Shown here: one piece after another, positions 5,807 to 9,758 of the stretch
Layout of the letters: each line of letters starts with the position of its first letter
How positions within the stretch are numbered: the first letter of the stretch is position 1
Assembly (NCBI GenBank): GCA_945872425.1
Contig: CAMBZE010000012.1
Span: forward strand, 1-34,222
Source: Methylotenera oryzisoli
Lineage (GTDB): Bacteria > Pseudomonadota > Gammaproteobacteria > Burkholderiales > Methylophilaceae
Direction: 5' to 3'
Length of the DNA stretch: 34,222 nucleotides
The notes under the pieces: generated by a model
Database searches by the model: none
What the model was told of the DNA's origin: nothing
The model's input: the letters and a program-made list of their open reading frames with translations, nothing else
Made by a program: the position numbers and the translations under genes

Positions 5807-6226
5807 TTACTTCTGCACCCAACCACTCGCGCCTTGGTAATACCACCCCCCTTGCGCCTTATCTATCCAGCGACCGGCAAAAGTGCTTTGAATTTCAAGT
5901 TGCCACTCTGGGTGACCATTGGCTGTCGCGATTTCTTTGTAGAGATTAGCGCGGTCTGCATTTTCTGCAGCAACAGCGCTATTCAGCGCCGCGCGGTCTT
6001 TTAGTGGCACAACATTCGCATCGCGCACTGCAATCAAGCCATCTTTAGTTAAACCAATCGCGCCACTCGCATAGTGCGCGCCCAATTGCCCGTGACGCGC
6101 TTGCATGCTGCCTTTAATAGCTGAGATAGCCGGTGTGTTGACTTCCAAATCTGCCGCCGCAGCGACAAACTGACTTGCAAACACCGTACTTAATAACAAG
6201 AGTAAGCTGAGTAGTATTTTTTTCAT
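5807..6226 (-). CDS. ydbL: YdbL-family periplasmic protein (DUF1318)
   Basis: The product is 139 residues from the ATG at 6226. Three ATGs stand in tandem (6232, 6229, 6226); AAAGGA is abutted by the first, so the third has the best spacing. The signal peptide MKKILLSLLLLLSTVFASQFVAA precedes a DUF1318 domain with the typical R-x-x-L-Y-x-x-I-A segment (RANLYKEIATANG) and a C-terminal GWYYQGASGWVQK. In E. coli, YdbL is a periplasmic partner that modulates assembly of the YdbH-YnbE complex. Here it ends the same gene order, 22 nt after the small lipoprotein gene. Confidence 0.85.
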   Translation of the reverse strand: MKKILLSLLLLLSTVFASQFVAAAADLEVNTPAISAIKGSMQARHGQLGAHYASGAIGLTKDGLIAVRDANVVPLKDRAALNSAVAAENADRANLYKEIATANGHPEWQLEIQSTFAGRWIDKAQGGWYYQGASGWVQK

Positions 6227-6248
6227 CATCATTCCTTTGTGTAAAATT

Positions 6249-6440
6249 TTATTTTGCAGGGGCTGAAGCAGGTTCAACCGCTTTTACATTTGGCTTCTCG
6301 GCACCATTTTTCAGCTGCCATACATCATCAATAATTTTATCTGCGGCTTTTTCTGCGGCAGCAGCAGGAAAGTAAATGTTGATGGTAACGCAAGCGGGTA
6401 ATGCGCACGCCAATGCCAAACCAGTTATCCAATTTTTCAT
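6249..6440 (-). CDS. ynbE: Small outer-membrane lipoprotein, YnbE-like
   Basis: The product is 63 residues with a lipoprotein signal ending in LPAC, lipidated at C17. AAGGA lies well placed before the ATG. After the cysteine comes a short beta-prone strand, VTINIYFP, then a helical stretch, AAAAEKAADKIIDDVW, and a disordered Pro/Ala tail. The residue after the lipid cysteine is not aspartate, so outer-membrane sorting is expected. E. coli YnbE likewise is a tiny lipoprotein whose strand pairs with the YdbH C terminus. The sequence similarity to E. coli YnbE is slight, so the assignment leans on size, lipobox and position between the ydbH and ydbL homologs. Confidence 0.75.
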   Translation of the reverse strand: MKNWITGLALACALPACVTINIYFPAAAAEKAADKIIDDVWQLKNGAEKPNVKAVEPASAPAK

Positions 6441-6478
6441 TATCTATCCTTTTAATTTAATTTCTTTTTTTGAACAAG

Positions 6479-8299
6479 TTACTTAACAATCGCCCTGCTG
6501 TTGCCATCGGTCACGCGTTTGACACGTTCTAACAATTCGCTCCAACCCACGGTTTGATTGTACCCCATCACGGTGATGGCGGGGATGCCACTTCCTTTAA
6601 CGATCACATACCCATGTGGCGTTGACTCAATCCCTCCCATTTGGCAAATATCATTGCGCAAGCGGCAACTTAACCCCATTTTTCCGTAGTTAAATTGCTC
6701 AAAGAATCGTAAAAAACTGCGTTGAACGGCCGCGGCGGCACCACCGCCACCTAGTGCTGATATATTTTCTACCGCGCGTTGTGATATTTTTTTCGGATAC
6801 TTACCAGGACTACTCTGCATCACCGCATCAAACCTGACTGGCTTCCAGCTTTGCAGTTCTAAATCTTCAATATCACCATCGAGCTTACCTTCAATCGCGC
6901 CGAATGAGAATGTACGCGTTAAATCTCCTAAATCCAAATTGCGCAGCGCGATATCCGCATTGAGCTTAGGCGCAATGCCCATCGGGGAATGCATCACAAG
7001 CTGCGTCACCGTGGCCGTGCCGTTAAATACATTCAGTACCACACTACCATCAGTAGTGAGAGTGCCGCCACTATAGGTGACCAACGGAATCTCAGCCGAA
7101 ACCTTACCCAGCATACGCGGCAGTTTGAGTTGGGCACTAAAATCCGCCATGGAAATGGGTTCAAGTTTAGCGCTCAAATGCCAATACCATTGCCCGCCGA
7201 TACGCGCCGCTGCTATGTCAGACAAATTCAGAGCGCCATCCAAAATTGGCAACCTGATATTGGGCGAAGTCAGCGAAAAACGATTTACCTCCGCTTGTAT
7301 ATTGGTTTTACCCAAAGGCAGATTGAGTAAATTGCCATTTTCATAGCTCATGCTCACACTCTTTGGCGTATCGTAGCTCCAGGGGAGTTTGGCATTGAGT
7401 TTATAAAATGCAAACTTCTGGTTTTTATCTGCAATATCTACATCTTTTAATCGCAGCTCAAATGCCTTTAATTCAGCATTCTTCACTTGCAGCATTAGCG
7501 CTGCATTGCCTGCAACATCTGCATTATTAAATGCCGTCTTTTCTAAAAATGGCTTAAATAACAAAGGGTAAGCAGTACTTAAATCCAAACTTGGCAAATT
7601 TGCGTTCAAATCCATCAACTTGGTATCACTTAAACGCACTCGCCCATCTGCATCAAGTTCGCCTACGTTTTTAATTTTTAGATGTGCCGATTTTATATTG
7701 AGCAAATCATCTTCCAGCGTTCCACTCGCAGAAAGTTGATGCCCGCCATTGGCCACATAAAACGGCTGCCAAAACACTTCACCCGATTGCCAATCCAGCG
7801 CAGTCTGCCATGCCCAAGCACGCCCCTCCTGCCTGAGTGAAACATCAATTTTACCGTTAAGATTTTCTGCCGCATGCAGGCCTGCTTCGTCGCTTAAACT
7901 TGCATTTCTTAACTGTAATGTTGCATGAACATCCAGCACCCCTTGATTAAATAAGCGATTGATTTCAAGGCTAAAAGGAATGTTTGCCTGTGCATTTTTA
8001 AGCAAGCCATCCGCACAGTTAAATTCACCCAATGACGTATTTTCAGGCAAGTCACACTTGAGCTTAAACTGCGTCCAATCTTTGGTGGATTTTTGCTTAA
8101 GTGCCGAGCTTAAAGTTAAAGTCGGTGTAGATTTATTGAATTTAGGCTGATCAAAGTTTAAATGCAGCACCACATTTTGCGCATCTCCTTGTGAATGCGT
8201 GATACTCGCAGCGCGAATTGAAATTTCACTGACAGCATGCACAGCAACGCTATATGAGACACCACAAAGAAAGCTAACAATACGGATGAAATAATTCAT
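6479..8299 (-). CDS. ydbH: YdbH-like AsmA-related protein, putative intermembrane lipid bridge
   Basis: The product is 606 residues, clearly shorter than E. coli YdbH (about 880). The body is built of long stretches of alternating beta strands (LDADGRVRLSDTKLMDLNANLP, GKLDGDIEDLELQSW), as in the repeating beta-groove proteins of the AsmA/TamB class. The C-terminal segment from about residue 505 (ISQRAVENISALGGGGAAA to GYVIVKGSGIPAI) resembles the conserved YdbH tail. In E. coli, YdbH is anchored in the inner membrane and pairs with the YnbE lipoprotein to move phospholipid to the outer membrane. Here the N terminus looks like a signal peptide possibly cleaved after A22 (VHA). It follows cysM by 23 nt. 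Confidence 0.75.
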   Translation of the reverse strand: MNYFIRIVSFLCGVSYSVAVHAVSEISIRAASITHSQGDAQNVVLHLNFDQPKFNKSTPTLTLSSALKQKSTKDWTQFKLKCDLPENTSLGEFNCADGLLKNAQANIPFSLEINRLFNQGVLDVHATLQLRNASLSDEAGLHAAENLNGKIDVSLRQEGRAWAWQTALDWQSGEVFWQPFYVANGGHQLSASGTLEDDLLNIKSAHLKIKNVGELDADGRVRLSDTKLMDLNANLPSLDLSTAYPLLFKPFLEKTAFNNADVAGNAALMLQVKNAELKAFELRLKDVDIADKNQKFAFYKLNAKLPWSYDTPKSVSMSYENGNLLNLPLGKTNIQAEVNRFSLTSPNIRLPILDGALNLSDIAAARIGGQWYWHLSAKLEPISMADFSAQLKLPRMLGKVSAEIPLVTYSGGTLTTDGSVVLNVFNGTATVTQLVMHSPMGIAPKLNADIALRNLDLGDLTRTFSFGAIEGKLDGDIEDLELQSWKPVRFDAVMQSSPGKYPKKISQRAVENISALGGGGAAAAVQRSFLRFFEQFNYGKMGLSCRLRNDICQMGGIESTPHGYVIVKGSGIPAITVMGYNQTVGWSELLERVKRVTDGNSRAIVK

Positions 8300-8322: not shown

Positions 8323-9210
8323 CTATGACGGATACACACCCGTGGATAGATAGCGATCGCCCCGGTCGCAAACGACGCTTACAATGACAGCATTTTCTAC
8401 ACGCTTTGATAGCTGCAATGCCGCATACAAAGCCCCTCCAGAGGATATACCCGCAAAAATACCTTCCTTCGTTGCCAATTTACGTGTGGTGTCTTCTGCA
8501 TTTTTTTGACTGACATAAATGAGTTCATCCACACGTTTTGCGTCATAGATTTTGGGCATATATTCTATTGGCCATTTGCGAATGCCCGGAATTTGCGCGC
8601 CCTCTTCAGGTTGCACACCGATAATTTGAATATTGGGATTTTGTTCTTTCAAAAAGCGTGAAGTACCCATAATCGTACCCGTTGTGCCCATGCTGGAAAC
8701 AAAATGGGTCACCTTGCCTTCCGTATCGCGCCAGATTTCAGGGCCTGTACCCTCATAATGCGCCAATGGGTTATCCGTATTACCAAACTGATCCAGCACG
8801 ACACCCTCCCCTTCCGATTGCATCTTCATCGCCACATCGCGCGCCAGCTCCATACTGCCATCCTTAGGCGTAAGTACCAGCTCTGCACCATAAGCCTTCA
8901 TGCTTTGGCGGCGCTCTACACTTTGATTTTCAGGCATCACCAGTATCATTTTATAACCACGCATGGCGGCCACCATGGCTAGCGCAATGCCGGTGTTGCC
9001 ACTAGTTGCCTCTATCAGCGTATCACCGGGCTTAATGTCGCCGCGCGCTTCTGCATGCGTAATCATCGAATAAGCTGGCCTATCCTTCACTGAACCCGCA
9101 GGATTATTGCCTTCCAGCTTCAGTAAAATGATGTTGCTGGTATTGCCCGCCATGCGCTGCAGTTTCACCAAAGGCGTATTGCCGATAAAATTGTCTATTG
9201 TTTTATACAT
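8323..9210 (-). CDS. cysM: Cysteine synthase B (O-acetylserine sulfhydrylase)
   Basis: CysM (295 residues) is a PLP enzyme that makes cysteine from O-acetylserine and sulfide or thiosulfate. The PLP lysine is K42 in PAGSVKDRPA. TSGNTGIALA binds the substrate carboxylate. The C-terminal segment SSGG near residue 255 belongs to the phosphate/PLP contacts. The 295-residue length, the GNNPAGSVKDR segment and the absence of a CysK-type longer C terminus favour the B isozyme. It lies 41 nt after dsbB and 23 nt before the ydbH homolog on the same strand. Confidence 0.92.
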   Translation of the reverse strand: MYKTIDNFIGNTPLVKLQRMAGNTSNIILLKLEGNNPAGSVKDRPAYSMITHAEARGDIKPGDTLIEATSGNTGIALAMVAAMRGYKMILVMPENQSVERRQSMKAYGAELVLTPKDGSMELARDVAMKMQSEGEGVVLDQFGNTDNPLAHYEGTGPEIWRDTEGKVTHFVSSMGTTGTIMGTSRFLKEQNPNIQIIGVQPEEGAQIPGIRKWPIEYMPKIYDAKRVDELIYVSQKNAEDTTRKLATKEGIFAGISSGGALYAALQLSKRVENAVIVSVVCDRGDRYLSTGVYPS

Positions 9211-9251: not shown

Positions 9252-9758
9252 TCAACTTGATTTCAAATTCAATTTGGCCAAATAAACCGCATAAATACCA
9301 AAGCATAAAAAGGCGATCAGCGACATTTGTGGAATAGTCAGCCCTAAAAATGTCCAATCAATAGCGGCGCAGTCGCCAGTGCCGCGAAATACCAAGGTCA
9401 GCGCTTTTTTTAGCGGAAAATTCTCGAACATATAATCAAAACCCACGCCGCAATCAGCAATCATGGATTCTTTGTGTGCCTGTACCCACCAGTGGCGCAT
9501 GGCAACGCCGATACCGCCCAACGCGGTCAGCACTTGTAACACTGCGAAAAATTTTGGAAGTTTTGGTAGTAGTGCCGCCAGTAAAAATAGTACACCCAAT
9601 GCCATGAAAATAATACGCTGCGAGATGCACAGCGGGCAGGGCTCTAAGTGATAGCGCGTTTGCATCCATAACGCCACACCAACCAAAGCAAAACAGGCAG
9701 TAAAGCCGATAAAGTAACCGGTGCGGCCGGTAAGAATTTTATTGAGCATCGTATTCAC
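9252..9758 (-). CDS. dsbB: Disulfide bond formation protein B
   Basis: DsbB (168 residues) is an inner-membrane protein that reoxidises periplasmic DsbA and hands electrons to quinone. Four membrane segments are visible. The first periplasmic loop carries C41-PL-C44, and the second loop carries C103 and C130, the same two pairs as E. coli DsbB. The start is a choice between GTG at 9758 and ATG at 9749, three codons apart, and neither has a convincing ribosome binding site. The gene is divergent from xseA with only 43 nt between starts, so the two promoters must overlap the spacer or the coding ends. Confidence 0.92.
   Translation of the reverse strand: MNTMLNKILTGRTGYFIGFTACFALVGVALWMQTRYHLEPCPLCISQRIIFMALGVLFLLAALLPKLPKFFAVLQVLTALGGIGVAMRHWWVQAHKESMIADCGVGFDYMFENFPLKKALTLVFRGTGDCAAIDWTFLGLTIPQMSLIAFLCFGIYAVYLAKLNLKSS

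Follow-up and report, generated by a model that had tools for sequence, protein, structure and literature searches.

The window analysed here is a 34,222-nucleotide stretch of Methylotenera oryzisoli DNA (positions 1–34,222 of contig CAMBZE010000012.1, GenBank assembly GCA_945872425.1), from a genome of 1.49 Mb that is 98.3% complete. From nt 8299 to 5807 its minus strand carries a YdbH-YnbE-YdbL-type gene set in the same order as in Escherichia coli, and the large protein of the set is a compact YdbH with a predicted signal peptide where an inner-membrane anchor would be expected. The minus-strand order is cysM, the 606-aa YdbH, the 63-aa YnbE, the DUF1318 protein YdbL, a 3'-5' exonuclease gene and rlmD (Table 1); the names cysM, exonuclease and rlmD, and that of a dsbB gene discussed below, were assigned by eye. 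The first-pass annotation of this region had described the E. coli gene order, a YdbH about 270 residues short, a cleavable-looking N terminus with V-H-A at residues 20–22, and a VTINIYFP strand in the lipoprotein. All four points hold: the order is that of ydbH (b1381), ynbE (b1382) and ydbL (b1383), the protein has 606 residues against 879 in E. coli (273 fewer), V-H-A falls on a conserved alignment signature of the predicted cleavable kind, and VTINIYFP directly follows C17 of the lipoprotein. An in-frame TAG immediately before the ydbH ATG means that the frame cannot extend upstream. The ydbL frame as listed runs from nt 5807 to 6277 (156 aa from a TTG), with ATG codons ahead of the signal peptide at nt 6232–6226. 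A pseudogene or an assembly fault was considered for ydbH and ruled out by its conservation, the upstream stop and the same gene order in relatives.

Table 1. Features of the ydbH-ynbE-ydbL region of the window
Feature	Position (nt)	Strand	Basis
Compact YdbH-like AsmA-superfamily protein	6479..8299	-	606-aa open reading frame (ORF); 39 relatives; AlphaFold2 (AF2) groove; profile match to canonical YdbH
Predicted signal peptide, YdbH residues 1–22 (A-V-H-A / V-S-E)	8234..8299	-	Alignment columns 20 and 22; helix 2–20, then strand from 25
First groove strand, YdbH residues 25–35; free N-terminal edge if signal cleaved	8195..8227	-	DSSP on AF2 model
Most conserved YdbH part, residues 441–600, presumed outer-membrane/YnbE-facing end, with invariant C545 and C552	6500..6979	-	Block conservation
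YnbE-like lipoprotein, 63 aa	6249..6440	-	ORF; lipobox LPAC17 by eye; counterpart in 39/39 relatives
C17-VTINIYFP motif, candidate strand at lipid-bearing Cys	6366..6392	-	Invariant columns in 27 rows
YdbL-like periplasmic DUF1318 protein	5807..6232	-	PF07027, 77.2 bits (cut-off 27)
cysM-like gene directly upstream of ydbH, context only	8323..9210	-	By eye; conserved in 36/40 loci

Among the three proteins only YdbL matches its own Pfam family (PF07027, E = 1.5e-21), so the identification of the set needed proof. The window YdbH gave no match to PF11739 at E ≤ 10 and none in NCBIfam, and no member of a 37-row automatic alignment of the compact family (A1) matched PF11739 at E ≤ 0.1; E. coli YdbH, as a control, matches at 3e-291. 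The window YnbE likewise had no PF13617 match at E ≤ 10 (one unrelated weak hit was returned), compared with 3e-16 for E. coli YnbE. A further comparison was made between profiles. The compact family, together with ten more distant relatives, aligned by hhalign to the C-terminal half of canonical YdbH, with 213 columns matched (97.7%, E = 2e-12), so that the lack of YdbH C-terminal similarity that would have overturned the first-pass assignment was not found. The control values for the compact family profile were 94.4% for TamB, 7.4% for YhdP and 0.6% for AsmA, with 31 sequences in the canonical YdbH alignment and only 2–5 in each control alignment. When the hidden Markov model (HMM) of the family was run against single sequences, the top-ranking sequences from outside the family were two canonical C-terminal fragments beside DUF1318 genes (3e-9 and 5e-8) and one canonical YdbH (3e-8). 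The identity as YdbH is drawn from the genes around it and from the profile match, not from Pfam, and the compact protein is best described as a YdbH-like AsmA-superfamily member of a separate branch, outside PF11739 as defined, with YdbH as its nearest known branch. Pfam does not cover the compact YdbH family. The top structural matches were not used for family assignment: ApoB100 (9coo, Z 14.0, root-mean-square deviation 13.0, 347 residues aligned), CymA, pilus ushers, porins and LptD were set aside because they have the curved-sheet arrangement in common. No AsmA-like protein is among the structural matches listed, which excludes nothing.

In A1, position 22 is Ala in 34 of the 37 rows and position 20 in 30, and the residue between them varies, the commonest occurring in only seven rows; A22 is the sole column with at least 90% identity ahead of C82. 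Signal peptidase I sites are recognised by small residues at −3 and −1, the −2 position being free; a permanent anchor needs no such pattern, so a signal peptidase I site is predicted here. Sites read by hand have Ala at −1 in 38/38 and at −3 in 36/38 sequences, a count that is partly circular as the sites were author-placed, and the Ala columns of the alignment are the cleaner evidence. (A1 omits L014, where the contig is cut and the start codon missing, L023, which has unknown residues, and L037; the hand table omits L014 and L037, with no site by pattern.) The AlphaFold model is consistent with this reading: a helix covers residues 2–20 and the first strand (25–35) begins two residues past the site, with no helical domain between. 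With regard to a Chorein-N domain, which would follow an anchor, a general scan of the AsmA-clan families of Pfam gave no match at E ≤ 0.1 for any of the 37 A1 members, and strands come directly after the signal. By comparison, an N-terminal transmembrane stretch was seen by eye in all 30 canonical YdbH loci read, the top scorers among 89 matching genomes. In the literature consulted (PMC8593681, PMC12977461, PMC11784454, PMC12800296, PMC12045153, PMC11014939, PMC8912898, PMC12802150 and PMC7643837), an anchor helix is predicted for all six E. coli AsmA-like members (PMC8593681, PMC12045153). Where these proteins have an inner-membrane anchor helix, the compact YdbH appears to have a signal peptidase I signature instead, and the cleavable signal proposed by the first-pass annotation is supported by the A1 columns, by the modelled strand start at residue 25 and by the anchored state of canonical YdbHs.

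The alternative that the helix stays uncut and anchors the protein as in E. coli, giving simply a shorter anchored bridge, is rather unlikely. The model does draw residues 2–20 as one helix, and triplets resembling A-x-A can be found beside genuine anchors as well, in 10 of 17 canonical rows (two of the 17 being misframed). In the hydrophobicity comparison, made with the same 17 rows, the best 19-residue means range from 0.86 to 2.35 in compact rows and start at 1.28 in well-framed canonical rows, so that the ranges overlap and the weaker canonical anchors are no more hydrophobic than compact signals. Against an uncut anchor stand the conservation of −1 and −3 with a variable −2 across 37 sequences, the closeness of the first strand to the site, and a hydrophobic core weaker in the window YdbH than in E. 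coli YdbH (1.63 vs. 2.95). As a separate observation, the Nitrosomonas loci L029, L030, L035 and L036 show, by eye, a [FY]-A-[GS]-C motif a few residues before the predicted signal peptidase I site, and those YdbHs might be lipoproteins instead of soluble proteins. A lipoprotein form was also considered for the window YdbH and rejected, no lipobox being seen.

Modelling of YdbH (AF2) returned a beta groove, with a mean predicted local distance difference test score (pLDDT) of 80.5 and a predicted template modelling score of 0.67. Residues 25–496 form 27 strands of at least six residues in an open sheet (pLDDT mostly 80–96), and the strands are amphipathic: the alternation value of 2.28, compared with 1.33 for within-strand shuffles, was reached in none of 2000 shuffles. 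The predicted structure has the large periplasmic beta groove of the beta-taco or RBG type. Conservation is lowest at the N-terminal end (block values of 0.35–0.43 for residues 1–120) and rises to 0.76–0.80 at residues 441–600, which argues for a conserved function at the end presumed to meet YnbE; 68 columns are invariant across the 37 A1 rows. Four cysteines of YdbH are invariant (C82, C95, C545 and C552) and could form two disulfides.

The periplasm is 20 nm or more in width. The periplasmic part of YhdP, a protein of 1266 aa in E. coli, is quoted as 268 Å (PMC11014939), and a rough scaling by residue number from it would give about 130 Å (~13 nm) for mature compact YdbH and about 180 Å for E. 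coli YdbH. Ruiz et al. 2021 counted a strand-rich region of more than 700 residues as large enough to cross; mature compact YdbH has about 584 residues in all. By this rough estimate it would fall well short of bridging the periplasm on its own.

Of 200 genomes from the order Burkholderiales, 45 carry the compact family, many of them of 3–5 Mb, and its hosts include ammonia oxidisers and methylotrophs; the closest of the 39 relatives examined is 76% identical to the window protein. In a sample of the phylum it was found in 16 of 397 genomes, 11 of them outside the order and spread over seven families. A further 29 loci of the order (L132–L160), several of them identical or nearly identical to A1 rows, all show by eye a short signal followed by strands, as do six relatives of the same class from outside the order. 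The 'unusual' compact betaproteobacterial form of the first-pass annotation is, then, compact and signal-like as described, and is neither peculiar to one genome nor limited to the order of the window. The idea that a full-length YdbH has been decaying here, in the course of genome streamlining, and that the gene is what remains of it can hardly be credited: the 1.49-Mb genome is small and TamB was not found in it, but such a remnant is contradicted by the conservation, by the many larger genomes that carry the family and by the invariant columns.

Five relatives from other classes (L114, L116, L117, L118 and L174), also PF11739-negative, keep the C-terminal half and have a transmembrane anchor. 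They share with the compact family the C-terminal domain and a spacerless CVTVN lipoprotein motif, and differ from it in the anchor, in the fusion of the lipoprotein to YdbL (see below) and in weak matches to AsmA-clan families: three of the four scanned matched the N-terminal part of YhdP, DUF748 or AsmA, with best E-values per protein of 0.0048 to 6.5e-6, none of which reaches the curated cut-off. From more than 70 rows, 35 were chosen for a tree; rooted at the midpoint and with some long branches, it split 30 signal-peptide rows from the five anchored rows by one branch with support of 100/100. Since canonical YdbHs are anchored and a single branch separates the two groups, the simplest history would be one loss of the anchor and N-terminal region, with a signal peptide in their place.

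The companion genes are constant. A YnbE-like gene lies behind the compact ydbH in all 39 relatives taken from genome contigs, and a YdbL homologue was found by tblastn in 38; the exception (L004) ends at a contig edge about 150 bases past ynbE. This constancy argues for an operon and not a chance arrangement. It also bears on the idea that the groove has another job at the outer membrane, with lipoproteins or different amphipathic molecules as its cargo. The type II secretion protein GspN, an AsmA-like beta-taco outside the TamB/YhdP/YdbH trio, is reported to act in lipoprotein transport, with a gene context and proposed cargo of its own (PMC12802150), and the compact size and lack of an anchor would suit such a role; the linkage to YnbE- and YdbL-type genes, which serve a phospholipid route in E. 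coli, makes it quite improbable. The operon can also be broken up: in genome G176, one contig carries both the compact ydbH gene (L110) and a fused lipoprotein-DUF1318 gene (L166), with about 567 kb between them.

An alignment of YnbE, which took 27 of 40 sequences, has C17, V18, T19, N21, I22, Y23, F24 and P25 invariant and C17-V-T-I-N-I-Y-F-P-A nearly so. The strand motif starts at the lipidated Cys in 39/39 relatives, whereas canonical lipoproteins have 9–12 residues between the Cys and a strand of the ITIN or IVIN type (25 of 30 loci with a recognised lipoprotein). With no spacer, the candidate lipoprotein strand of the compact family must lie near the outer membrane. This has a bearing on whether a full bridge might be made by stacking, either of head-to-tail grooves or of YnbE. 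LptA, which stacks head to tail, is a soluble periplasmic open beta structure that lies between the two membranes with known partners at both ends; a likeness of working to this component of the lipopolysaccharide bridge may be drawn. Once the signal was cut off, the edge strand at the N terminus of YdbH would be free, and two copies of ~13 nm might reach ~25 nm. The end that would have to stack is, however, the least conserved part of YdbH, and a YnbE strand set at the lipidated Cys leaves little room away from the membrane, so that a stacked bridge seems rather unlikely.

In all 11 loci outside the order (L110, L111, L112, L113, L114, L116, L117, L118, L174, L175 and L176), the lipoprotein and the DUF1318 domain are in one open frame. 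Inside the order the two are separate, a stop codon ending the lipoprotein frame in the window, in 39/39 relatives and in 28 of the 29 further loci, the last being without the motif in the stretch covered. Joint action of YnbE and YdbL is supported by the fusion. In E. coli, YdbL keeps YnbE from self-stacking, and it may do the same here. Just before the DUF1318 part, the fusion junction has Ala at −1 in 11/11 and at −3 in 10/11 (one Val), with −2 variable; these sites were author-placed, but an automatic alignment also shows an invariant Ala column. The junction looks like a relic of the YdbL signal peptide or a working internal signal peptidase I site that would free YdbL; the preceding stretch is only weakly hydrophobic (14-residue mean of 0.0 to 1.9), often with an Asp, so that a relic is plausible.

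The first-pass annotation supposed that a bridge too short or not anchored would need another partner. Among the families conserved around 40 loci (16 listed, some of them antisense frames), which include cysM (36), the 3'-5' exonuclease (32), rlmD (28), dsbB (24), xseA (23) and a Kup-like transporter (15), no dedicated inner-membrane partner gene was obvious; of those in most loci, only the DsbB-like one (24/40) is, by eye, an inner-membrane protein. The lack of an obvious linked gene and the low conservation of the N-terminal end of YdbH lend such a partner no support. As for longer AsmA-like proteins in the host genome, AsmA and YhdP are present. TamB (PF04357) was not found there; among the 60 Methylophilaceae searched it went undetected in 34 others as well, and Methylophilaceae without detected TamB are a natural background with few AsmA-like bridges. 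TamB does not track compact YdbH, being found in 23 of 45 genomes with it and 76 of 155 without, in a tally that treats two genome draws as the same 200 genomes. AsmA, in 177 of 200 genomes, is too common to be informative.

Taken together, the lack of an obvious linked partner gene, the failure of TamB to track the family and the conserved C-terminal end favour a soluble groove held at the outer membrane. The compact YdbH is probably, with considerable room for doubt, a secreted lipid groove held there by YnbE and too short to bridge the periplasm alone. It would be exported by the Sec route and cut after Ala22, leaving a mature protein of about 584 residues with neither an inner-membrane anchor nor a recognisable N-terminal AsmA-type domain, its open groove running nearly from end to end. 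The short strand of YnbE would then cap the conserved C-terminal edge and hold the groove near the outer membrane, in the manner of the strand augmentation of YdbH by YnbE described for E. coli (PMC12045153). As the groove would reach only ~13 nm, lipid would have to enter at its free N-terminal mouth, from a periplasmic carrier, through transient inner-membrane contact or from another groove protein, and no dedicated docking partner would be involved. Compared with the E. coli bridge, the fixed end at the inner membrane would be missing, and YhdP would be the fixed bridge in the host genome. Cleavage, tethering and lipid transfer are here each inferred. It is unlikely that the protein is instead a detachable, unanchored groove that takes on its lipid at a distance from the outer membrane and uses the freed edge strand to stack on further copies or on an AsmA-like protein with an anchor, giving an Lpt-like bridge from soluble pieces.

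Several observations weigh against the outer-membrane-held groove, in addition to the overlap in hydrophobicity described above. Cleavage of YdbH is a prediction from sequence pattern. The C-terminal ~100 residues have low AF2 confidence, so that the docking end is poorly resolved, and YnbE folded alone gave a low-confidence helix (pLDDT 58.6). The spacerless YnbE also accompanies anchored YdbHs and is therefore not an effect of anchor loss. With regard to the identity of the protein, most canonical YdbHs rank below TamB (5e-6) and YicH (3e-5) with the family HMM, the E. coli YdbH reaching only 0.06; a Foldseek search of the PDB with the YdbH model gave no match with E below 1e-3, and no chain was matched in a PDB profile search.

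The E. coli YdbH-YnbE-YdbL system shares with the compact set the gene order, an AsmA-superfamily groove, a small lipoprotein with a TIN strand motif, a DUF1318 protein and the profile similarity of the C-terminal half. It differs in the inner-membrane anchor, in a YdbH that is 273 aa longer and in the 12 residues from the lipid Cys to ITIN in YnbE. LmeA of mycobacteria, likened here by description only, is a lipid-binding periplasmic protein described with a Chorein-N domain and as a TULIP-domain protein, in other bacteria and another context (PMC7643837). No description of an unanchored YdbH or AsmA-like conduit was found in the literature searched, most subscription papers lying outside its reach. 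Judged from its sequences, the signal-peptide form of compact YdbH is a widespread natural variant of the AsmA-like bridge. Such bridges are described as inner-membrane-anchored and periplasm-spanning, and the compact form, about two-thirds of the length and predicted to be unanchored, keeps the gene for the outer-membrane partner. It separates the two ends of the bridge and so asks whether continuous inner-membrane attachment is needed for lipid flow, and it provides a presumably soluble protein for purification and for tests of lipid binding and transfer.

Two further observations concern the surroundings of ydbH. In the window the cysM-like gene and ydbH are perhaps co-transcribed, and the DsbB-like gene lies, by eye, two genes upstream of ydbH on the minus strand (nt 9252–9758). 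At L108 (genome G258) the spacing is wider than in the other loci, with about 650 bases from ydbH to the lipoprotein gene behind it and about 1.5 kb to the cysM motif ahead of it, which suggests inserted genes.

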